DNA of 64,000 nucleotides, from the NCBI RefSeq assembly GCF_023073415.1, contig NZ_JADPJL010000024.1, positions 62,001-126,000 of the forward strand, in the 5' to 3' direction. Every line of letters begins with the position of its first letter. Position 1 is the first letter of the stretch. Position numbers and translations under genes: made by a program. The stretch is from Bradyrhizobium sp. 190 (GTDB lineage: Bacteria; Pseudomonadota; Alphaproteobacteria; Rhizobiales; Xanthobacteraceae). Positions 13,410 to 44,824 of this stretch are shown piece after piece. The notes under the pieces were generated by a model that ran no database searches, had not been told where the DNA came from, and saw nothing but the letters and a program-made list of their open reading frames with translations.

Positions 13410-14489
13410 TCATAGTTTAAGCGCGATTTGCGCTGGATCGTCGGTATCCTCCCCGACAAACCCGGAGACTGACACGCCGAGCAGTCTGACGGGTTTCTTC
13501 ATCGGGAAGAGTGCTATCAACAATTCGGTTATCACGTTCGCCAACTCCTCGCGGCGCACGACCGGAGCGACAACCGTTCGGCTCCTTGAGATCAACTCGA
13601 AGTCGGCGAATTTCACCTTGAGCGTCACCGTCCGGCCGCGCGTGCCCTTATTCTCGCAATGGCGCCAGACCTTGTCGATCAACGGCTGCAGTTCCGACAC
13701 CATCGCCTCGAACTCGGTGAGGTCGGTGAAGAATGTATTTTCGGCACCGACGGATTTCCGGATTCTGTCGGGCCGAACTTCGCAGTTATCGATGCCGCGC
13801 GAGATCCAGAAGTAGTAGCTGCCGGCCTTGCCGAAATTCGCCTGCATGAATTCGAGGGACTGGTTGCGCATGTCGAGGCCGGTGTGGAGACCGAGAGAGT
13901 TCATCTTCGCGCTGGTCGCCGGCCCGATACCGTGGAATTTGCCGACCGGCAGCGTCTCGACGAACGCTGCCCCCATCTCCGGCGTGATGACGTACTGGCC
14001 GTTCGGTTTGCGGTGGTCGGAAGCGAGCTTCGCCAGGAACTTGTTGTAGGAGATGCCGGCCGAGGCGTTGAGGCCGGTCACCTCCTTGATCTTCGCGCGG
14101 ATCGCGAGCGCGACGTCGCGCGCCAGCGGAATTCCCCGCAGGTTCTCCGTGACGTCGAGATAGGCTTCGTCGAGCGATAGCGGCTCGATGATCGGCGTGT
14201 GCTCGGCGAATATCTCGCGGATCTGCTGCGATACCGCCTTGTAGACCTCGAAGCGCGGCTTGACGAAGATCAGGTCCGGACACTGCCTTTTGGCCGTCAC
14301 CGACGGCATCGCCGACCTGACGCCGAACTTGCGGGCTTCGTAGCTGGCTGCCGCCACGACGCCGCGCTCGCGGGATCCGCCGACGGCGACCGGCTTGCCG
14401 CGGAGATCCGGATTGTCCCGCTGCTCGACCGACGCGTAGAAGGCGTCCATGTCGACGTGAATGATCTTCCGCTGACGGGTTTCGTCCAT
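13410..14489 (-). CDS. dinB: DNA polymerase IV (Y-family)
   Basis: A 359-residue Y-family translesion polymerase. IIHVDMDAFYASVEQRDNP carries the first metal-binding Asp and steric-gate region. PLSLDEAYLDVTE carries the Asp-Glu pair, and SYNKFLAKLASDHRKP and KFHGIGPATSAKM (helix-hairpin-helix) follow. The C-terminal little-finger domain is complete. It makes error-prone synthesis past lesions. It is divergent from the FAN1-DnaQ gene, and a perfect GAAC-N7-GAAC LexA box lies 58 nt upstream, so SOS control is likely. Confidence 0.95.
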   Translation of the reverse strand: MDETRQRKIIHVDMDAFYASVEQRDNPDLRGKPVAVGGSRERGVVAAASYEARKFGVRSAMPSVTAKRQCPDLIFVKPRFEVYKAVSQQIREIFAEHTPIIEPLSLDEAYLDVTENLRGIPLARDVALAIRAKIKEVTGLNASAGISYNKFLAKLASDHRKPNGQYVITPEMGAAFVETLPVGKFHGIGPATSAKMNSLGLHTGLDMRNQSLEFMQANFGKAGSYYFWISRGIDNCEVRPDRIRKSVGAENTFFTDLTEFEAMVSELQPLIDKVWRHCENKGTRGRTVTLKVKFADFELISRSRTVVAPVVRREELANVITELLIALFPMKKPVRLLGVSVSGFVGEDTDDPAQIALKL

Positions 14490-14546
14490 TGCACTCCAGT
14501 GATTTGCGGCCGCCTCGAGCGGACCTTGACAAATCGGCCTGCTTTA

Positions 14547-14561
14547 GAACAAAGATAGAAC
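14547..14561. promoter_or_regulatory. LexA (SOS) box between dinB and the nuclease gene
   Basis: GAAC (14547-14550), seven bases, GAAC (14558-14561), the direct-repeat LexA operator of alphaproteobacteria (GTTC-N7-GTTC on the other strand). It is the only such site in the dinB/FAN1-like intergenic region. A TTGACA (14526-14531) on the plus strand may be a -35 element for the nuclease gene. Confidence 0.8.
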
Positions 14562-14595
14562 ATCTCCGGCGCAGCGGCAACCGACTGCGCGTGGC

Positions 14596-16800
14596 ATGGC
14601 GCTCTTGCGTGTGATCCAGGAAGGCCCAAGGGCGCTGCGGATGAAACGGCCGGATCTACCTATCTATTATTACCACGACCATTTCGTCGAGATGCTCGCG
14701 TTCGTCAGAGCTACCTACGGCTCGATCCTGACGGATGAGCACGAGGCCTTCGTCACGCGTTTCCAGCATCTTTCCAAGGATGCGCAATGCCTGCTGATCC
14801 GGATGGTCAATCGGCGGGGTACGATCTTCAATCGGTCGCTCTTCAGGTACGCTGAGATTTCGGATCTGGAACGCGCGGTCGACGACCTATTGGCGTGCGG
14901 CCAAGCGCGATTTCTCAGGGACGAGGACTATTCCGCGTTCCTGGCGTGCCTGCCAAAGGACGTCCTGCTCTCCGGTGCGAAGGCGGCGGGCCGGACGGAC
15001 GTCCGCGTCTCATGGCCGAAAGCGAAGCTGGCCGATTATTTTTTGGCGCAGGTTCCTTTTGAGGTCGCCGCCGAGCATTGTACCGCGTCGAAGTTCATCG
15101 CGTTGGACGACATTCGGCCGCTCGAGTTCCTGCTTTACCTCTACTTCGGCAAGACCGAGAACGACTTGAAGAACTTCGCGCTGCGTGATCTGGGAATCAT
15201 GCGGACCAACAAGGCCACTTCGTTCAAGGCCCGTTTCACGGATGGCGACGAGGCACGGGCTTGCTTTCATTATAGCCGCCTCCTCGATCGGCTCGAAGTC
15301 AAATCGTTGACCATCTACCAGGATGCAGTCACCGACATCTTCGGCGGGCCCGGTTGCTCTAGCGATTATGCCGCTGATCTCCGCAGTCGCGCCGCCTGGC
15401 TGGTCGGTCAGTTTTTCGAGAAGAGGGCTGAAACGGATCTCGCCAGGCAGCTTTATCGTGCGGATTCGTCGCCGGAATGCAATGAGCGGTTGGTCCGCCT
15501 GCTTTACGGCGCCGGAGATAAGGAGGACGCGGAAGATCTGCTGCGGCGGATGATCGACGATCCGGCCAGCGACGGCGAATTTGTCTTCGCTACTGATTTC
15601 TATTCTCGGAAATTCGGCGGTCGCCGGACTGGATCGTGCACCGATCTGCTTCGCGCGGGAGTCACTCTCACGGTCGATGACGTTTTCCGCGGCAACCCGG
15701 AAGGGGGTGTCGCCGGTGTGATGCGCCGCCGGGGCTACCGGGTTTTCTTCGCGGAAAATACACTTTGGCATTCGCTGTTCGGGTTGCTGTTTTGGGACGA
15801 GCTTTTCGAGTCCGAGCTGCTTCCCAGCAGTTTCGATTGGGTGCCTCATTGCCTCAAGGACCGAAGCTTCGCGCGTCGGTTTGCCGCCCAGATTGACGAC
15901 AAGCTGGATGCCGTTCGATCCGGAAGTGCTCTCAATCTGCTGCTACGCCCGCTTGCGGCAAACTGGGGCCGTCCGAACGGCATCTTCGCCTGGGATCATG
16001 TCGACGTCGACGCGTTGCGGCTGCTGCTGTCGGGAACCAGCGGGGAAGGAATCGCGACGATCGTCCGCTCGTTATGCCAGAACTTTCGCGACATGCGGGA
16101 CGGATTCCCGGATCTCATGCTGGAGAAGGACGGCACCGTCTCATTCATGGAGATTAAAGCCGAGGGCGACGTTATCCGACGCAATCAACTCACGCGGTTG
16201 AAACAGCTTGGGAACGCCGGCATCCGTGCGGAAATCGGGAGGGTCGATTACCGCTTCGACCCCGAGCAGGATTATGTCGTGGTCGACGTGGAGACGACCG
16301 GCAGTTGGGCGGCGGGGGATCGGATAACGGAAATCGGCGCGGTTAAAGTTCGCAACCATCAGGTCGTCGACGAATGGCATTCCCTGTTGAATCCGCAGCG
16401 GACCATTCCGGCAAGAATAACGCAGATCACGAACATCACGAACGAGATGGTTCGCGATGCGCCGATATTCGCGGAAGTCGCGGACAGCTTCATGCAGTTC
16501 ATGGGCGACGGTATCTTCGTCGCGCACAACGTCAATTTCGACTACTGTTTCATCAGCTACGAATATGAACGGCTTGAGCGCCGCTTTCGTTTTCCGAAGC
16601 TATGCACCGTCGCAGGAATGCGTCGGCGCTATCCGGGGCATAAGTCATATAGCCTTGGAAAACTCTGTGAATTCTACGGGATCGAACTCAAAACGCACCA
16701 CCGTGCGCTGTGCGATGCCCGTGCAACGGGCCATCTTCTAAACCTTATCAATCAAAAGCGTGAAGCAGCCCTGCCGTCAGCACTTGAAGACGCGGCCTAA
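14596..16800 (+). CDS. FAN1-like nuclease fused to DnaQ-type exonuclease
   Basis: A 734-residue protein. Residues 20-110 (YYYHDHFVEMLAFVRATYGS, LSKDAQCLLIRMVNRRGTIF) and TLWHSLFGLLFWDELF match FAN1-type structure-specific nucleases. Residues about 470-550 are a VRR-NUC domain with GFPDL (Asp about 505) and FMEIKAEGD. Residues 560-725 are a DEDDh exonuclease: VVVDVETTG (D564, E566), AHNVNFDY, and HHRALCDARATGHLL (D707). FAN1 handles interstrand crosslinks and flaps; the exonuclease could trim products. ATG 14641 is an alternative start. It shares a LexA box with divergent dinB. Confidence 0.88.
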   Translation: MALLRVIQEGPRALRMKRPDLPIYYYHDHFVEMLAFVRATYGSILTDEHEAFVTRFQHLSKDAQCLLIRMVNRRGTIFNRSLFRYAEISDLERAVDDLLACGQARFLRDEDYSAFLACLPKDVLLSGAKAAGRTDVRVSWPKAKLADYFLAQVPFEVAAEHCTASKFIALDDIRPLEFLLYLYFGKTENDLKNFALRDLGIMRTNKATSFKARFTDGDEARACFHYSRLLDRLEVKSLTIYQDAVTDIFGGPGCSSDYAADLRSRAAWLVGQFFEKRAETDLARQLYRADSSPECNERLVRLLYGAGDKEDAEDLLRRMIDDPASDGEFVFATDFYSRKFGGRRTGSCTDLLRAGVTLTVDDVFRGNPEGGVAGVMRRRGYRVFFAENTLWHSLFGLLFWDELFESELLPSSFDWVPHCLKDRSFARRFAAQIDDKLDAVRSGSALNLLLRPLAANWGRPNGIFAWDHVDVDALRLLLSGTSGEGIATIVRSLCQNFRDMRDGFPDLMLEKDGTVSFMEIKAEGDVIRRNQLTRLKQLGNAGIRAEIGRVDYRFDPEQDYVVVDVETTGSWAAGDRITEIGAVKVRNHQVVDEWHSLLNPQRTIPARITQITNITNEMVRDAPIFAEVADSFMQFMGDGIFVAHNVNFDYCFISYEYERLERRFRFPKLCTVAGMRRRYPGHKSYSLGKLCEFYGIELKTHHRALCDARATGHLLNLINQKREAALPSALEDAA

Positions 16801-16848: not shown

Positions 16849-17412
16849 TTACAGAGCCGGCAAGGCGCGAAACCGGGACGACGGTAGCCGAACCCGCGCG
16901 GCGTCGCCGGCCGCGACCGGTCCGCCGGACCGTACCACGCCCAGCACCCCACATTTGAACGGAGGGCCCGTTTCATCCGACGAGAGCACCTGCCGTTTTA
17001 AGCCCGCCTGGAAACGGTCGATGAGGACACACGGCGTCCGGAGGCCGGTCAGCTCGATCATCGCCATGGGTCCGAGCTCAATCAGCGTCCCGAGCGGCAT
17101 CCGCTCGAGGTCCAGGCCGGTTGTCGTGATATTCTCGCCCAGGTCACCCGCTGCGACCTCGAAGCCCGCTTCCGAGAGGGATCTAAAGAGCTCGGACGGG
17201 ATCAAGTGGACCTGTCTGAGATTGGGTACGCGGGGCCGGCGGCGGGCCAGATAACGGTGTCGGACAAATGAACCTGCGTGTGCGTCGCCTTCGACGCCAT
17301 GGCCTTCCAACAGCACGATCCGATCCCGAGTTTGCTTGCTGAAGCGGTGACCGCCATCGGCGGCGACCGCGACCACAGTGCCCTCCAATGAGAGCGCGTC
17401 CTGCTGCGTCAT
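16849..17412 (-). CDS. MOSC domain protein
   Basis: A 187-residue stand-alone MOSC protein. LLEGHGVEGDAHAG, GDLGENITTTGLDLERMPLG and ELTGLRTPCVLIDRF are characteristic; the late Cys is the expected cofactor-binding or sulfur-carrying residue. MOSC proteins bind molybdenum cofactor and act in sulfur transfer or N-hydroxylated base reduction. The start overlaps the PolX stop by one base (TGATG at 17410-17414), so it is translationally coupled to the repair gene. Reduction of modified nucleobases would fit that context but is inference. Confidence 0.87.
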   Translation of the reverse strand: MTQQDALSLEGTVVAVAADGGHRFSKQTRDRIVLLEGHGVEGDAHAGSFVRHRYLARRRPRVPNLRQVHLIPSELFRSLSEAGFEVAAGDLGENITTTGLDLERMPLGTLIELGPMAMIELTGLRTPCVLIDRFQAGLKRQVLSSDETGPPFKCGVLGVVRSGGPVAAGDAARVRLPSSRFRALPAL

Positions 17413-19094
17413 CAGGCCGCCCGGGCGAGCGAGCGCCGCTTCTGACGGAGGTATCGCGTGATTTCCGGAAGAGGCATCGCGTTGAGGACGCGGTCGGCGG
17501 GGACACCGCCCTTGCGCGCCATCGCGACGCCCCAGTGCATGTGGTCGAGCTCGGGGATCGAGTGCGCGTCCGGATTGATGCTGAGCATGCAGCCGAACTC
17601 AAGGGCGGCCTGGTGCCAGCGCCAATCCAGATCGAGCCGCCATGGATGAGCGTTGATCTCGACAACGACGTCATGCTTGGCGCAGGCACGCAGCACTTTC
17701 TCGATGTCGATTTCGTAGCCTGGCCGCCGCTGGAGCTGGCGCCCGGTCATGTGTCCGATGATGTTAGTATGAGGATGCGAGATGGCCCGAAGCAGGCGCA
17801 AAGTCTGTGCTTTACCGTCCAATTTGAATCGGCCATGGATGCTCGCGACCACAAAATCGAAGCCTTCCAACACGTCGTTTTCATAATCGAGCGATCCGTC
17901 CGCCAAAATGTCGGACTCGATGCCTTTGAGGATCCGAAAATCTTTGCCGAAGCGCTTGTTCAAGCGGTCCGCTTCCCGGTGCTGCTGCGCGATCTCGTCG
18001 ACCGAGAGACCACCGGCGTAGTGCGCGGACTTTGAATGGTCGGCGACGCCGAAATACTCAAAACCGCGCTGACGCGTAGCTTTGGCCATTGCCTCCAGGG
18101 TCTCGGTGCCGTCGGAGGCATCCGTGTGGCAGTGAAGGATCCCGCGCAGGTCCTGGTCGTTAACGAGCTTCGGCAACTTGCCCTTCAGAGCAAGCTCGAC
18201 CTCGCCGCGCCCCTCCCGGAGTTCGGGATCGATGAAGGGCAGGCCGAGGGCGCGATAGATCTCGGTTTCGTCGCCGGCGATCAGGGAGCGGCCCTTGTGC
18301 AAGCCGTCGGCCTCTAACCGCATTTCCTTCTCGGCAGCCAACGCCTGGAGCTGGGCAACGTGAGCGGCAGAGCCGGTGGCGAAGAGAAGGGCAGCGCCGA
18401 AGTGCTTTCGGTCGGTCAAGCGGATCTGCAATCCATCGGCCAGGGACGCCTTCGACGTTTTGGCTACCTTGGGCGCTTCTGCGACGATCATGAGTTCACC
18501 GACGAGTTCGCAGCCTCGGCGGAAGTCGCCTGCGACTGCAACGCGCTTGAGCTCGGGCCGGGCCTTACGGAGCGAATCCTTGGCGTGCGCGAGAAGAGCG
18601 GCGGCTCGATGCAGGTGGAGGCGACCTTCTCCGTTTTTTGCGATGGCCAAGTTCTGTAGGATCTTGGTCTGCAGCGCAGCGCCTAATCCTTTGGCCTTCT
18701 TGACGCGATCGTCTTTGGCCGCGGCTTCCAGCTCGGCGAGCGAGGCGATGCCGAGATCCTTGTAGAGACGCAGCACTTTTTCGGGGCGGAGACCTGGCAC
18801 GGCAAGCAACTCGAGCACTCCCTCGGGGATCTCCTTCCGGAGCTTTTCAAGACTCGGATGAGTACCCGATTTGCTAAGCTTGGTGATGATGTCAGCTATG
18901 GCATCGCCGACCCCGGGTATCTCCGTAAGCCGGTCTTCGGCGACGAGCACATGCAGAGGTACAGCGAGCGCCGTCAAACTATCGGCGGCGCGCCCATAGG
19001 CTTTGGCCCTATAGGGGTTGCCGCCGCGCAACGCGGTTCGCTGCGCGTACTCTCGCAGGAGACTTGCTATGGCGCGAGCGTCGAGGGAGGGCAC
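17412..19094 (-). CDS. polX: PolX-like protein with PHP domain, degenerate polymerase site
   Basis: A 560-residue protein with the PolX layout. An N-terminal helix-hairpin-helix part (ALRGGNPYRAKAYGRAADSL, EIPGVGDAIADII) is followed by a Pol beta-like core and a C-terminal PHP phosphoesterase (ILHCHTDASDGTETL, GVADHS, SIHGRF, EINAHPWRLDLDW). In the core the usual GS-RR---GDIDIL is AGDFRRGCELVGELMIV, so both catalytic Asp are missing. I infer a nuclease that binds like a polymerase but cannot polymerise. The start is GTG, directly abutting the stop of the upstream small gene (TGAGTG). Confidence 0.87.
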   Translation of the reverse strand: MPSLDARAIASLLREYAQRTALRGGNPYRAKAYGRAADSLTALAVPLHVLVAEDRLTEIPGVGDAIADIITKLSKSGTHPSLEKLRKEIPEGVLELLAVPGLRPEKVLRLYKDLGIASLAELEAAAKDDRVKKAKGLGAALQTKILQNLAIAKNGEGRLHLHRAAALLAHAKDSLRKARPELKRVAVAGDFRRGCELVGELMIVAEAPKVAKTSKASLADGLQIRLTDRKHFGAALLFATGSAAHVAQLQALAAEKEMRLEADGLHKGRSLIAGDETEIYRALGLPFIDPELREGRGEVELALKGKLPKLVNDQDLRGILHCHTDASDGTETLEAMAKATRQRGFEYFGVADHSKSAHYAGGLSVDEIAQQHREADRLNKRFGKDFRILKGIESDILADGSLDYENDVLEGFDFVVASIHGRFKLDGKAQTLRLLRAISHPHTNIIGHMTGRQLQRRPGYEIDIEKVLRACAKHDVVVEINAHPWRLDLDWRWHQAALEFGCMLSINPDAHSIPELDHMHWGVAMARKGGVPADRVLNAMPLPEITRYLRQKRRSLARAA

Positions 19095-20712: not shown

Positions 20713-21659
20713 CTATTTGCGCGGACGTTCTCGCTCGCGCACGACATCCCTCGCCCGCTTGTCGGTCCGGAGCCCGAGATAGACCGGCTGGCGCAGTTCG
20801 CCCTTGCTCGTCCACTCTGCGAATTTGACCTCGGCAACTAGCGAGGGCTTGACCCAGGTCGTGTTGGCCTCGTCCTTCACTTTGGCAGGAAAGGGTGACT
20901 TCGAGGCCGTCAGCTTCACGAGCTTGACATGGAGGTCTTCCAGGACCTTGTGGCTGAAGCCGGTGCCGACATGACCGATGTAGCGCCATGCGTCGCCTTC
21001 CCGCACGGCGAGGACCAGGGCGCCGAAGAACGACCTGGTGCGCCTGGGCGCCGTGAAGCCGGCGATCACCACTTCCTGTCGCTTTGCCGTCTTGATCTTC
21101 AGCCAATCCGGGGTCCGGCTTCCGGACGCATAAACGCTGTCGGCGCGCTTGGCCATGATCCCTTCGAGGCCCTTCCGCTCGGCCTCGGTGAAGAATTTCG
21201 TACCGTCCCCTTTGCGGTGAGCGCTGAAGGCGATCAGCTTGTCGCGCGGCAAAATCGCCTTCAGCCGCTTCTTACGCTCAAGGAGAGGCTGCCTGCGCAA
21301 GTCCGCTGCGTTCTCGAACATGAGGTCGAAGGCGCAATACAGCAGCTTTGCTTCATGGCGCAGCGCGTTTTGAAGCAGCTGGAAATGCGAGACGCCGTCC
21401 TTCCGATCGCGACGAGTTCGCCGTCGATCACGGCGTCGCCCTTCACGCCCTCCAGCGCTTTGGCGACCTCGATATAGCTGTGGCTGATGATCTTGCCGTT
21501 GCGGCTGTAGAGTGCAACCTTGCCCCGCCGGATTTCCGCGATCATCCGGAAGCCGTCATACTTGTCCTCGAAAACCCAGCCGGTGTCGTCGAACGGCGCG
21601 TCGGTGAGCGTAGCGAGCATCGGCTGCAGGCGCTTGGGCAGGATCAACGTCCGGCTCAT
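20713..21659 (-). pseudogene. Third ATP-dependent DNA ligase, frameshifted
   Basis: A LigD-type ligase domain without phosphoesterase or polymerase. From ATG 21659 it reads LQPMLATLTDAPFDDTGWVF, EDKYDGFRM (catalytic Lys) and DGELVAIG. A missing base near 21,401 (AAA to AA in GGAAAGGAC, by inference) shifts the frame. The rest continues as VSHFQLLQNALRHEAK, GLEGIMAKRADSVY, KIKTAKRQEVVIAGF and WVKPSLVAEVKFAEWTSKG, about 315 residues in all. Either a recent pseudogene or a sequencing error. A perfect GGAAC-N17-CGTT promoter lies upstream. Confidence 0.8.
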
Positions 21660-21978: not shown

Positions 21979-22821
21979 GTGACCCGCTACTCACTGGATG
22001 AACTACGTCAGCGTTATATTATTGAGGGTAGGCCGCTGGAGGCGAGCCTCGAAGAAATCCTGCGCGCCGACACCCGAGCGGGAGCGCGCGCTATCCTTGC
22101 TTCGATTGAAAAGCGCCGCTTTGAAAACCGGTCTGAAGGGCAGCGGCTTCGCAAGATGCTGCGCTTTGAGACGCTTTTGTGGGATGAGGGGCAGGATGCC
22201 GTTGCGGGCGTCGACGAGGCCGGAATGAGCCCGCTTGCGGGACCCGTCGCCGCTGCCGCGGTTATCCTAAAGCCCGGCACGCGCATCGCCGGTATCGACG
22301 ACTCGAAAAAGCTGGATGCGAATTCGCGTGAGGCTCTTGCGAAGGAAATCAAAGAAAAGGCGGCTTCATGGTCTGTCGCGTTTGTCGAAGTCGAGGAGAT
22401 AGACACCATCAACATCTACTGGGCGGGCGTTCTCGCGATGCGGCGGGCTGTTGAAGGCCTGGGAGTAGTCCCGCAGCATCTCCTGATCGACGCGAAACGT
22501 TTGAAAGAGATAGCGATCCCGCAGCAGGCGATTATCAAGGGTGACGCGAAATCCGCCAGTATCGCGGCTGCTTCCATTCTAGCGAAGGTCTCGCGCGATG
22601 CGCTGATGCGAACGCTCGACACGCGTCATCCCGGTTACGGCTTCGCCGATCACAAGGGTTATCCTGTTCGCGCTCACTACAATGCCTTAGCTCAGCTGGG
22701 TGCGTGCCCTGCTCATAGACGTTCGTTTGGCCCTGTGCGCGAGGTCCTTGGCTTGCCGCCGCTACCGCCCTGGCCCGTGGCATCGGAACGCGCCAGTGCC
22801 ACGTCAGGGCCTGAGGCATAA
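21979..22821 (+). CDS. rnhB: Ribonuclease HII with atypical GMS motif
   Basis: A 280-residue RNase HII. AGVDEAGMSPLAGPVAAAAV holds the first catalytic Asp-Glu (D79, E80). IDDSKKLDANSRE, HLLIDAKRL, SIAAASILAKVSRD and HPGYGFADHKGYP complete the fold. It has an about 70-residue N-terminal helical extension. The normal GRG, which reads the RNA-DNA junction, is GMS here. I recall that form from myxobacterial enzymes, so transfer is possible. The start is GTG. It removes RNA from DNA-RNA hybrids and embedded ribonucleotides, with altered junction preference if GMS matters. Confidence 0.9.
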   Translation: MTRYSLDELRQRYIIEGRPLEASLEEILRADTRAGARAILASIEKRRFENRSEGQRLRKMLRFETLLWDEGQDAVAGVDEAGMSPLAGPVAAAAVILKPGTRIAGIDDSKKLDANSREALAKEIKEKAASWSVAFVEVEEIDTINIYWAGVLAMRRAVEGLGVVPQHLLIDAKRLKEIAIPQQAIIKGDAKSASIAAASILAKVSRDALMRTLDTRHPGYGFADHKGYPVRAHYNALAQLGACPAHRRSFGPVREVLGLPPLPPWPVASERASATSGPEA

Positions 22822-23357: not shown

Positions 23358-24081
23358 TCACGTCGCTGATCTGATCGGCTCTTCCTTGACGCCGCGGGCG
23401 ACGATCCGCAGCGCCCCGTCCGGCAGCGGCCGCTTCAGCTTGAGAGCCTCATCCGGAGTGGCCGTCATCCAGGTCTCGACCTCATCGGCCGTCGTCAGGA
23501 TGACCGGCATTGCCTTGGGGTGGACAGCGCCGACCTCGGCGTTCGCCTCCGTCGTGAGGAAGGCGTACAAGTCGTTGGTGGTCTCGCCCTCCTTAACCTT
23601 GCGCATGGAGGTCCAGTTGGTCCAGATGCCGGCGAAGCAGGCAAGCGGGCGGGCCTCGTTGAGCGCGAACCAGATGTCACCGCCCTCGGCCTTGTTGAAC
23701 TCACTGAAGGAATTAAACGGCACCACGCAGCGGTTCTCGACTCCTAGCCAACGCGTCCAGTGTTTGCTGTTTAAATTGCGGATGTTGGTCGTGCCGCCGT
23801 CCGGCTCCATGCGAAGCAGTTCCTTGAAGTCGACGGTCTTGCCTTGGCCTGCAGCTTTTCGGCACGCTTTTTGGTGGCGTCCATCAACGCCTTCGATGAC
23901 GATGGCATGCCCCACCGCGCCGTGGCGAGCTCGCGACCGTCGGCACTGTTGCGCTCGATCGGCGCCTTGTAGTCGGGAACACGCCCGGCATCGGCGCCAG
24001 GTTGCCAACGTATCGGTTAACGACGCGAAAGAGCGCGCTGATGGCGGCCTGGTTGGTCGTGATCGAATACAGATTGCACAT
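23358..24081 (-). pseudogene. SRAP (YedK-like) gene with two frameshifts
   Basis: An SOS response-associated peptidase-like protein. The first frame from ATG 24081 gives MCNLYSITTNQAAISALFRV, with the catalytic Cys2, and APMPGVFP. A missing base near 23,975 shifts to DYKAPIERNSADGRELATAR and WGMPSS. A second missing base near 23,842 shifts to KTVDFKELLRMEPDGGTTNI, RCVVPFNSFSEFNKAEG, CFAGIWTNW, and the final HPKAMPVIL. SRAP proteins crosslink to abasic sites in single-stranded DNA. Both indels are in short runs. It sits 3 nt after the 122-aa zinc-ribbon gene. Confidence 0.8.
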
Positions 24082-24084
24082 CGT

Positions 24085-24453
24085 TCAGGCTTCGGTTCGA
24101 GGATGGCGCGGCTGCCACCCTAATTGTAACAGAGTCGCTGATGGGCGCCGGCCCGCCTTGGCGCATTTGCGGCAGCGCAGCCGGCTCGCGAGGTCGTGGA
24201 CGAAGGTCGTCGGCGGATGTTTCATGGCTGCGAGGTCGACGTCGCTGGGCGTCTTGCACCGCGCGCAGCGGATCTCCAACCAGGAAAAGCCGGCGTTGAC
24301 GGCCTGGTCGATCGTCGGTGACGGATCGATCGGCTCGCCGTCCGACCACATCCGCTCGTTCCAGCTTTCGCAGAGCAGCTTGTCGGCCTGCTGAGGCATT
24401 GCCTCGCCCTTGGCCCGCATCTCCGCCGACTGGGCGGCCAGGATGTTGGTCAT
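24085..24453 (-). CDS. Small protein with two CxxC pairs
   Basis: A 122-residue protein (MTNILAAQSAEMRAKGEAMP). It has WLEIRCARCKTPSDVDLAAM, then HPPTTFVHDLASRL and RCRKCAKAGRRPSATLLQLG, so four cysteines in two CxxC pairs can form a zinc ribbon. Similar proteins of unknown function occur in rhizobia. Its ATG overlaps the stop of the integrase remnant (ATGA, 24450-24453), and the SRAP gene follows after 3 nt. Confidence 0.65.
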   Translation of the reverse strand: MTNILAAQSAEMRAKGEAMPQQADKLLCESWNERMWSDGEPIDPSPTIDQAVNAGFSWLEIRCARCKTPSDVDLAAMKHPPTTFVHDLASRLRCRKCAKAGRRPSATLLQLGWQPRHPRTEA

Positions 24454-25514
24454 CGCGCGCGCCTTACAGTCTTGAAGCGATGTCGCCATCCGTGGGAGGG
24501 CGCTACGTTGGGGTCGTCGATGCCGAGACCGCGGACCCATTCGGCAAGTTTGTTGCCCACGCTTGCATAAATCGGGTTGACACGATCCTTCTTCCGCTGT
24601 CTCGCGAGCGAGTAGAAAAGTGGCGCTCCCTTGGGACGGGACCCAACGTATTTTAGGAAACCTTGATCGATGAGGTGAGGATGAAGCGGGACGATCCTCG
24701 TCTTCGTATCCTTCACCGAACCCGCCTCCGGGGTGATCCGGATGCACGGAAGACCGAGGACCAAGAAAACGTCGTTCACCCGCAGCTGCGTCATCTCGTT
24801 GACGCGCCCGCCGGTGTACGCACAGAGCCACGGCACCCATCGGCGGGCCGCGACGTTTTCGGGCGTCATCAGGCGACTGACCGGCGCGAGCGTCGCGGCA
24901 AGGATGAGGCTCGCCTCAGCATCGTTGAAGCCACGTTTCCGTTGCGGCGTTCGCGCCGTAGGCTCGACGAAGATTTCCGCGGCGGGGTTGGCAGGAAGCT
25001 TCTTGTTGCGCCGCGCCCAGCCGAAGAAGGATTTCAACGCGGCGGCATACCCCTCTTTGACGGTCTTCCTCGACTTGCTCTTCTTGAGCTCGTCGATCCA
25101 CTCCGCGAGGTGCACTTCGGTCACCGCCGACATGTCGTCCGTTCCCATGCGCGCGACCAAGCCGTCCAGGATGCCTTTGTACTTCTTCCGCGTGCTCCGC
25201 GATACTTGGCGATCGGCGACGAACTCTTCCCATAGTTTCGCCAGCCGCTGCTCGTCGGACATGGGAGTCCATTCGGGAAATCTGTCGGCGCTCCGGTCGG
25301 GGCTGAAGTCGCCTCGTGCGTTGCGCGCCAATACGCTCTCAGCTTGGGTTTTCGCCTCGAGATACTCTTTGACGAATGAGTCGAAGGTTGTGGGCGCAAG
25401 CGTCAGATTCTTGCTTTCGAGGAAAGCCCGGACTTGGTCGCCGAACAGGAAGCGGCGGTGCTGAGCGGGCGTTAGGGGTGAACAGCGAAGCAGGCGAAGT
25501 AAGCCAGCGATCAA
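24450..25514 (-). pseudogene. Tyrosine recombinase (integrase) remnant
   Basis: A 354-codon frame with a core-binding domain (STRKKYKGILDGLVARMGTD) and most of the catalytic domain: WLCAYTGGRVNEMTQL (first Arg), DTKTRIVPLHPHLID, and SHGWRHRFKT (His-x-x-Arg). It then stops before the region that should hold the last His and the nucleophilic Tyr. The N-terminus also seems to lack the usual first 100 residues. So this integrase is probably inactive. It lies 106 nt from the 3' end of tRNA-His in the same orientation, the usual place for an island integrase. Confidence 0.75.
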
Positions 25515-25620
25515 AATTGAATCGTCTCGACCAAAGACAAACCTTCGTGCTTGATGGTAGCTGGGTGGTAGCTAAGAAGGTCCCCTCTTCCGAAGGTGCT
25601 CTCTAACTGTCTGATCTTGT

Positions 25621-44221: not shown

Positions 44222-44379
44222 CGCTGGCCCCTGTTGATGAAGTCTTCCAGCTCCGCCCGCTTGCGCGAGAGCAGGAGCTGCGCCCTCGCATTGTCGAGGC
44301 CGGATTGATCGAGCTGACGCGTAAGCTGGTCCAGCTCGGCAATCCGCCGGCGCAGGGCTTGAATCGGATCATCGCTCAC
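44167..44379 (-). CDS. Small coiled-coil protein
   Basis: A 70-residue protein from GTG 44379 (SDDPIQALRRRIAELDQLTR), with a likely coiled coil continuing LLLSRKRAELEDFINRGQRC. The tail DGTTTMRITRHG overlaps the next gene. The GTG start is chosen because all sequence upstream in this frame comes from the dispersed repeat at 44402-44489. Confidence 0.5.
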   Translation of the reverse strand: MSDDPIQALRRRIAELDQLTRQLDQSGLDNARAQLLLSRKRAELEDFINRGQRCQDRSDGTTTMRITRHG

Positions 44380-44779
44380 GGCGGCCTCGAGCCTTTTCCG
44401 TTCCGATTGAATCGAAACGGTGCTCTGGATTTTTGATTGGACGCGTTTTCTTGACGCGAACCGGTCCCCACCCCGGATCAAATCCGGGGCCGGCTTTCGC
44501 TGGAAAACGCGCTGGCACCCCGTTCGCGGGTTTTCTGCTGGCCGCGCGGACATCCAGCTTCAGCCGCTCGTCGACATTGAGCAGCCGCTCTTCGCCGCCG
44601 AGCCGGTTCCGCTCGCTGATGAGCCCGAGCATGACGACCCGCATGGACATCAGGTGAATGGCGGCCTCCGAGCAGTCCTCATCCCGGTTGACCCGTTTGC
44701 GGATATTATCCTCCGCGCTCAACATCTCCGCCCGCAAGAACCTGATTTTTCTACGAATTTCATTCAATTTATTGTCCAT
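44369..44779 (-). CDS. Small helical protein extended by a repeat
   Basis: A 136-residue frame. Residues 1-85 (MDNKLNEIRRKIRFLRAEML, AAIHLMSMRVVMLGLISERN) form a plausible helical protein. Residues about 90-136 are the translation of the dispersed elements at 44402-44489, so the natural C-terminus has been replaced or lengthened by repeat insertion. A LexA box lies 31 nt upstream of the ATG (44810-44824), suggesting SOS control. Function unknown. Confidence 0.55.
   Translation of the reverse strand: MDNKLNEIRRKIRFLRAEMLSAEDNIRKRVNRDEDCSEAAIHLMSMRVVMLGLISERNRLGGEERLLNVDERLKLDVRAASRKPANGVPARFPAKAGPGFDPGWGPVRVKKTRPIKNPEHRFDSIGTEKARGRRER
44402..44489. repeat. Inverted copy of the 30.5-kb element plus hairpin
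   Basis: 44402-44466 is the reverse complement of the element at 30479-30547, including GACGCGTTTTCTTGACGCGA (44440-44459). Just beyond lies a second palindrome, CCCCGGAT (44471-44478), CAA, ATCCGGGG (44482-44489). Both fall inside the 3' part of an open gene on the minus strand. Confidence 0.7.
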
Positions 44780-44809
44780 GGGCCACCTCGCTCGGGTTGA
44801 ACCCTATAA

Positions 44810-44824
44810 GAACAAATAAAGAAC
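44810..44824. promoter_or_regulatory. Second LexA-type box
   Basis: GAAC (44810-44813), seven bases AAATAAA, GAAC (44821-44824): the same direct-repeat operator as at 14547. It lies between the helical protein (start 44779, minus) and the DUF3072 gene (start 44876, plus), so it could control both. The local A+T richness makes a chance match more likely than at dinB. Confidence 0.55.

Follow-up and report, generated by a model that had tools for sequence, protein, structure and literature searches.

A FAN1-type nuclease fused to a DEDDh exonuclease, a putative SOS repair protein of Bradyrhizobium and gammaproteobacteria

What does a gene do that joins a FAN1-type nuclease and a DnaQ-like exonuclease in one chain, and is it part of the SOS response? 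This question is raised by a locus in a stretch of 64,000 nucleotides (the window) of Bradyrhizobium sp. 190 (RefSeq assembly GCF_023073415.1, contig NZ_JADPJL010000024.1, positions 62,001 to 126,000, forward strand), where such a fusion gene lies divergently from dinB behind a LexA-type box. Human FAN1 is described to repair crosslinks and to act on the CAG-repeat expansion behind Huntington's disease. From its domains, predicted fold, conservation and operators, the product of the fusion gene is probably a bifunctional, DNA-damage-inducible (SOS) repair nuclease. It represents a FAN1 subfamily with a fused DEDDh exonuclease, which occurs in two bacterial classes and in both is often found behind the LexA box typical of the class.

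Two complete nuclease modules in one chain

A sequence-only reading of the window had assigned a FAN1 N-terminal region, a VRR-NUC nuclease and a full DnaQ-like exonuclease to a single chain. Indeed, FAN1_HTH, VRR_NUC and RNase_T were all found in the protein by Pfam, each above its cut-off (Table 1), and the motifs GFPDL (residues 503-507) and EIK (residues 519-521), which the same reading had called intact, are both present in the 734-amino-acid translation that we use for numbering. Alignment to PaFAN1, a bacterial FAN1 of known structure (4r89), placed D506, E519 and K521 on D507, E522 and K524, the residues named as catalytic in PMC9635880, and the DEDDh residues D564, E566, D649, H702 and D707 are all present as well. 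When compared with the sequences of solved structures, residues 15-535 matched PaFAN1 (5y7g, E 1.2e-31) and the C-terminal part matched the exonucleases of PolC, DinG and Pol III epsilon. An AlphaFold2 model built from 61 aligned sequences had a mean predicted local distance difference test score of 91.3 and a predicted template modeling score of 0.82. With VIA-align, residues 4-538 of this model superposed on the PaFAN1-DNA complex 5y7g (Z 28.4, 525 residues, root mean square deviation 3.5, 25% identity), so that the FAN1 fold is predicted over the full length of PaFAN1, and residues 540-710 superposed on the S. aureus DinG exonuclease (Z 26.3, 1.4 Å, 169 residues, 37% identity); the match of the exonuclease domain to Pol III epsilon had a Z of 23.6. 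The best NCBIfam match of the exonuclease half was PRK07883 with 183.8 bits over residues 559-724, but this is below the cut-off of 495 and covers only positions 7-174 of the 563 positions of the profile, and the protein is not a member of that family. The FAN1 half was covered by no NCBIfam family among the matches listed (25 of 30).

Both halves are conserved across the fusions. FAN1_HTH, VRR_NUC and RNase_T were all found in 65 of 65 fusions by Pfam, and when 77 fusions were aligned with 44 ordinary FAN1s, the residues E387, D506, E519, K521, D564, D649, H702 and D707 are identical in all 77 fusions and E566 in 76. Q531 in VRR-NUC and D564 in the exonuclease are 33 residues apart in every one of 81 fusions. 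Mean pairwise identity was 0.59 for the exonuclease halves versus 0.38 for the FAN1 halves, and the ratio of nonsynonymous to synonymous substitution rates (dN/dS) was 0.09 to 0.11 for the FAN1 half in six ortholog pairs and 0.05 to 0.09 for the exonuclease half in five, the sixth pair (WIN/L009) giving no value since its synonymous rate was saturated. The conserved residues, the spacing and the low dN/dS therefore point to purifying selection on both halves. A dead exonuclease domain is unlikely given the conserved residues and the dN/dS, and a recent chance fusion or an assembly error is ruled out by the constant spacing together with the single branch on which the fusions fall (see below).

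Class-specific LexA-type boxes precede many copies of the fusion gene

LexA motifs are given as GTTC-N7-GTTC for Alphaproteobacteria and as CTGT-N8-ACAG for most beta- and gammaproteobacteria (PMC8565304, PMC3323433). As claimed from the sequence alone, one perfect alphaproteobacterial direct repeat, GAAC-N7-GAAC, lies between dinB and the fusion gene. By its pattern this box proves little, because the window contains three such repeats versus 2.08 expected and 34 of 100 shuffles reach three. Therefore, conservation was used instead, in 220-bp windows at the aligned start and with the other windows of the same loci as background. GAAC-N7-GAAC was present before 30 of 30 Hyphomicrobiales fusions versus 20 of 1916 background windows (1%), and the evidence for the box is therefore strong. 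In all 30 copies, the box closest to the start is oriented the same way, and it occurs with or without dinB upstream. A gamma-type box, defined as CTG-N10-CAG with at least 15 of the 20 letters of the E. coli consensus, preceded 26 of 48 gammaproteobacterial fusions (46 of family f40 and two Pseudoalteromonas plasmid copies) versus 2 of 2819 background windows (0.07%). The alpha-type box was found before none of the 48 gammaproteobacterial copies and the gamma-type box before none of the 30 Hyphomicrobiales copies; since related copies are not independent, all of these numbers are counts and not probabilities. The predicted box is a LexA-type operator, as is required of a member of the SOS regulon.

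Outside this control, an alpha box was found at L201 and a gamma box at L200, and none at L198, L199, L024 and L031. The loci L028-L049 were excluded from the control and from the FAN1-part tree as mostly refetched copies. Nine of them were scanned for the box: L033 and L035 duplicate the genes L195 and L193, and six of the other seven have the box, the seventh being L031. Elsewhere in the window, two overlapping perfect GAAC-N7-GAAC boxes (44799-44824; three GAAC in 11-bp steps) lie just upstream of an open reading frame of 136 amino acids (44369-44779, minus strand) that had no Pfam match and is a candidate SOS gene.

The fusion occurs in two classes and seems to have arisen once

Within the genus, a match spanning both halves was found in 23 of 146 genomes, that of the window included. 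The gene is interrupted in two of these (a frame change in G006 and a stop in G033), has a stop at its very end in G024, and is present in two copies each in G142, G021 and G036. Profile scans were made in genome samples of the Pseudomonadota. In an even sample of the phylum, FAN1_HTH was found in 55 of 398 genomes; 11 of the 55 are fusions, as confirmed with an exonuclease profile built in this analysis, and of the remaining 44, 39 were read and lack the exonuclease and 5 were judged by their ordinary length of 539 to 581 amino acids. The gammaproteobacterial family f40 had FAN1_HTH in 51 of 147 genomes, 46 with fusions (one of them interrupted, G160) and 5 with ordinary FAN1s, and the fusion is the main form of FAN1 in this family. 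Family f40 seems to include Pseudoalteromonas, because the plasmid copies L057 and L058 fall there on the tree. A sample of the gammaproteobacterial class matched in 20 of 369 genomes, 19 of them above the cut-off, and contained five fusions, of which f40 accounts for two and family f265 for three; the other matches were read or judged by frame length only. Alphaproteobacteria matched in 2 of 289 genomes, the window's own and G1313, both with fusions, and in a sample of the order the FAN1 half matched in 5 of 297 genomes, every time in a frame of fusion length. An ordinary FAN1 was not seen in the alphaproteobacterial samples.

Among plasmids, 5 of 72,556 records had one place covering at least 80% of the query, two from Bradyrhizobium and three from Pseudoalteromonas, and a scan of named genomes with short query peptides gave 24 loci, 23 of Bradyrhizobium type and one from a member of the Woeseiaceae. 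In E. coli, no DNA match to the fusion was found. A phage origin was rejected: none of 50,697 phage records covered 80% of the query, and no relative turned up in viral contigs scanned with peptide patterns. Matches of any extent were present in 691 plasmid and 177 phage records, some of which were inspected. Three tblastn hits starting in or near the VRR-NUC motif, candidates for a second fusion, were rejected, as none had VRR_NUC at E 0.01: an Enterococcus faecium plasmid protein had RNase_T only, a Vibrio phage hit was RdgC beside a separate RNase_T, and a Rhodococcus plasmid protein had RNase_T and a helicase.

Partial copies exist as well. Besides its intact fusion, genome G684 carries the FAN1 half a second time, decayed and spread over several frames (L184, contig C12). 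In several Bradyrhizobium genomes, only the VRR-NUC end and/or the exonuclease part is present (L023, L026, L027 and L050-L055; 73 to 94% identical), and some of these pieces are a single open frame of 207 to 236 amino acids. No alpha LexA box was found within 500 bp upstream of L023, L026 or L027. These pieces are either remnants or exonuclease-only genes; neither they nor the frame-split L024 entered the tree or the box control.

In a tree of the FAN1 part, one branch, requiring one change, divides 78 fusions from 44 ordinary FAN1s with a support of 100 in the Shimodaira-Hasegawa-like approximate likelihood ratio test (SH-aLRT). The same split was obtained in a tree of 92 rows (34 near-duplicate rows removed) with the f265 and G1313 copies added, in which a single change accounts for the 19 alphaproteobacterial rows. 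In the first tree, all 30 Hyphomicrobiales rows group together (100) and are nested among gammaproteobacterial lineages (88). Both trees come from quick searches, their support is limited to SH-aLRT values without bootstrap, and inner support is modest. Thus, the fusion seems to have arisen once, and since the Hyphomicrobiales group sits among gammaproteobacterial lineages, the tree fits a transfer from gammaproteobacteria into Hyphomicrobiales.

Gene start and neighborhood

The open reading frame as read first runs from ATG 14596 to 16800 (plus strand, 734 amino acids). The ATG at 14641 is likelier to be the start, because alignments of homologues open at about residue 15 to 17 and two of the three annotated plasmid coding sequences (L057 and L060) begin at the position that corresponds to residue 15 to 16; that of L059 starts inside the protein. 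All three are labeled merely "exonuclease domain-containing protein." The sequence-only reading had the gene facing dinB across 106 bp. The divergent arrangement holds, but 106 bp is the distance from ATG 14596, and from the likelier start it is 151 bp. A promoter scan of the start region gave no sigma-70 site between dinB and the fusion gene.

Table 1. Features of the fusion locus and its surroundings in the window (residue numbers follow the 734-amino-acid reading)
Feature	Position	Strand	Details
FAN1-DEDDh fusion gene	14641..16800	+	Likelier start ATG 14641, 719 amino acids
FAN1_HTH	14665..14901	+	Residues 24-102; Pfam PF21315, E 2.9e-24
VRR_NUC nuclease	15970..16245	+	Residues 459-550; Pfam PF08774, E 6.9e-11
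DEDDh (RNase_T/DnaQ-like) exonuclease	16276..16734	+	Residues 561-713; Pfam PF00929, E 9.8e-35
Alphaproteobacterial LexA-type direct repeat GAAC-N7-GAAC, perfect: GAACAAAGATAGAAC	14547..14561	+	Pattern match and conservation
dinB (DNA polymerase IV, 359 amino acids)	13410..14489	-	NCBIfam PRK02406, E 1.9e-137; Pfam IMS, IMS_HHH, IMS_C
Broken SRAP gene	23361..24119	-	Pfam SRAP, E 8.4e-16, part of profile; pieces in different frames

Neighbors were surveyed in fetched flanks of mostly 6 kb. Among the 30 Hyphomicrobiales copies, dinB was present in the flanks of 14, arranged in three ways (divergent upstream in six, downstream on the opposite strand in six and downstream on the same strand in two), with the hit in pieces at L008, L059 and L091, and in the flanks of 1 of 48 gammaproteobacterial copies, with a weak hit (28%). 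The fusion and dinB had been taken from the sequence alone as one coherent repair unit; with these numbers, such a unit is not a conserved core of the fusion and the idea was dropped. The window's genome has a second dinB on contig C31 (84% identical). A gene for an SRAP (YedK/HMCES-type) protein lies immediately upstream and codirectional in 8 other Hyphomicrobiales copies, two of these through partial hits; in one copy (L004) it lies just downstream. SRAP is therefore not a constant partner either. Neither dinB nor SRAP was found in 8 of the 30 Hyphomicrobiales copies. In Bradyrhizobium, then, the gene is an accessory gene of SOS type that often adjoins dinB or SRAP. SRAP with DinB is a known SOS neighborhood, at times with Ku and ligase (PMC3765255), and the terms VRR, KIAA1018, exonuclease and DnaQ do not appear in the main text of that paper. 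HMCES, the animal SRAP protein, is described to take part in the repair of abasic-site crosslinks (PMC9436759).

In the window itself, the SRAP gene is broken; its relatives adjoin the fusion directly upstream in other Bradyrhizobium. The broken gene is next to a phage-integrase-like open reading frame (24453-25571, minus strand), which suggests that 23361-25571 is a mobile or decaying accessory region. Between this region and the fusion, an ATP-dependent DNA ligase is split over two overlapping frames (20713-21659), and with a PolX-like gene (17412-19094), an RNase HII gene (21979-22821) and two NUDIX genes nearby, the stretch is rich in DNA-repair genes.

Proposed function and alternatives

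If the fusion protein is an SOS repair nuclease, inactivation of LexA would derepress its gene. The FAN1 part would then bind 5'-flap or gapped junctions, for example, at an interstrand crosslink or a stalled fork; the VRR-NUC site would cut the flap strand and could digest 5' to 3'; and the exonuclease, held at a fixed distance from the VRR-NUC core, would digest the neighboring or facing 3' end. As a DEDDh domain with all of its residues, it should do so in the 3' to 5' direction. Both activities would unhook the lesion and leave a clean gap for a translesion polymerase or for recombination. FAN1 orthologues, that of Pseudomonas included, are described to cut 5' flaps, with some additional 5'-3' exonuclease activity, and the cut of the Pseudomonas enzyme is placed 4 to 5 bp past the branch (PMC4103454). 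E. coli DinB is reported to bypass crosslink intermediates (PMC3901139), and the DnaQ-like RNase T is reported to trim 3' ends of structured repair DNA and to be able to work with Endonuclease V (PMC3942315). The scheme is therefore plausible, but neither of the two precedents proves it. Our wider reading is evenly poised between right and wrong: the fusions would be a FAN1 subfamily that arose once in gammaproteobacteria and that couples a 5'-flap/5'-3' nuclease at fixed geometry to a 3'-5' exonuclease, as a two-way unhook-and-resect machine for crosslink repair; SOS control would have been kept on crossing into Alphaproteobacteria by means of a host-type LexA operator, and there the gene would have become part of accessory SOS clusters that contain dinB or SRAP, the abasic-site shield.

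Several observations weigh against the reading as an SOS repair nuclease. No repair partner is constant across the copies. With 15 of 20 letters as the minimum, a box is missing before 22 of 48 gammaproteobacterial fusions; in family f265, one of three copies has one; and the Woeseiaceae copy and the Bradyrhizobium copy L031, which is interrupted by a stop, have none. The substrate could also be other flapped DNA, as in recombination or slipped repeats, instead of crosslinks. Moreover, an E. coli-type box with at least 14 of 20 letters precedes 20 of 44 ordinary FAN1s (L061-L090, L098, L138, L142-L144, L146 and L185-L192) versus 0 of 1029 background windows; requiring 15 letters lowers the number to 8 of 44. 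Because such boxes also precede many ordinary FAN1s, the SOS link does not set the fusion apart, tells nothing in particular about the fused exonuclease and may predate the fusion. This fits the finding that PA1865, the gene of PaFAN1, is induced by UV-C and ciprofloxacin; the authors place it outside the three known damage regulons (PMC12796719), and LexA-type boxes before ordinary FAN1s may explain this induction left without a regulon.

SOS responds to many lesions, and the fusion might process DNA ends and flaps in general recombination or slipped-repeat repair and not at crosslinks as such. Such a role agrees with the action of FAN1-type enzymes on branched DNA resembling several intermediates of repair (PMC4103454), but PaFAN1 is described as guiding the step that unhooks interstrand crosslinks (PMC12796719, citing Gwon 2014 and Jin 2018), and we regard the general role as unlikely, although it is the strongest of the alternatives. 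Somewhat less likely still is that the exonuclease domain mainly proofreads in trans for DinB as the SOS polymerase that closes the gap made by the FAN1 cut. To our knowledge, Y-family polymerases have no proofreading of their own, the exonuclease half is close in predicted fold to the exonucleases of DinG, PolC and Pol III epsilon, and dinB is near the fusion in almost half of the Hyphomicrobiales copies, as described above. However, dinB is absent from the flanks of 16 of these 30 copies and of 47 of the 48 gammaproteobacterial ones.

An anti-phage or anti-plasmid nuclease that is switched on by SOS during infection is very improbable. The exonuclease half did match the PADLOC candidate PDC-S48 (E 4.3e-45), and one plasmid copy lies within about 10 kb of AbiEii-type and GTPase-associated (GASH) genes. 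But the PDC-S48 match is confined to the exonuclease part and to positions 4-172 of the 411 positions of the model, the FAN1 half had no PADLOC match at E 0.001, no phage record covered 80% of the query, and the scan of viral contigs gave no relative. Seven conserved gammaproteobacterial neighbor clusters, judged by eye and without a search, suggest no defense function; they look unrelated to DNA repair as well.

Comparison with known systems

A FAN1 subfamily with a fused DEDDh exonuclease is apparently unreported. Open-licence literature, among the matches listed, gave no report of a FAN1/VRR-NUC-exonuclease fusion, nor did the open-licence literature on SOS or LexA with FAN1 or on FAN1 in Bradyrhizobium, and subscription work could exist. 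The suggestion made from the sequence alone that the fusion may be undescribed thus stands as far as this literature goes, but not in the sense of a rare architecture, since it is common in f40. A built-in, presumably 3'-trimming enzyme that has its residues intact and lies at a fixed spacing points to a testable partner activity beside the FAN1 cut, and the operator data suggest that a repair gene kept SOS-type operators when it moved between classes whose LexA motifs differ.

The exonuclease half finds its best NCBIfam match in PRK07883 (DEDD exonuclease domain-containing protein), and the likeness is limited to this half. Presumably, PRK07883 proteins also join a DEDDh exonuclease to an endonuclease, in that case a UvrC-like one; the literature search found no paper on a DnaQ/UvrC fusion. 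With the DnaQ-like DEDDh domains of DinG, PolC and Pol III epsilon, the fusion shares the whole domain and all five catalytic residues, but it has the domain at the C terminus of a structure-specific endonuclease and not with a helicase or polymerase. RNase T acting after Endonuclease V in E. coli is alike in that DnaQ-like 3' trimming follows a repair endonuclease (PMC3942315), whereas there the two are separate proteins and the endonuclease is a different one. The closest relative is bacterial FAN1 itself (PaFAN1, PA1865; PDB 4R89 and 5Y7G), with which the fusion shares the predicted fold and the catalytic residues and, with many ordinary FAN1s, SOS-type boxes. However, ordinary FAN1 ends after VRR-NUC (44 of 44 read without an exonuclease), and the fusions form a separate group on the tree.

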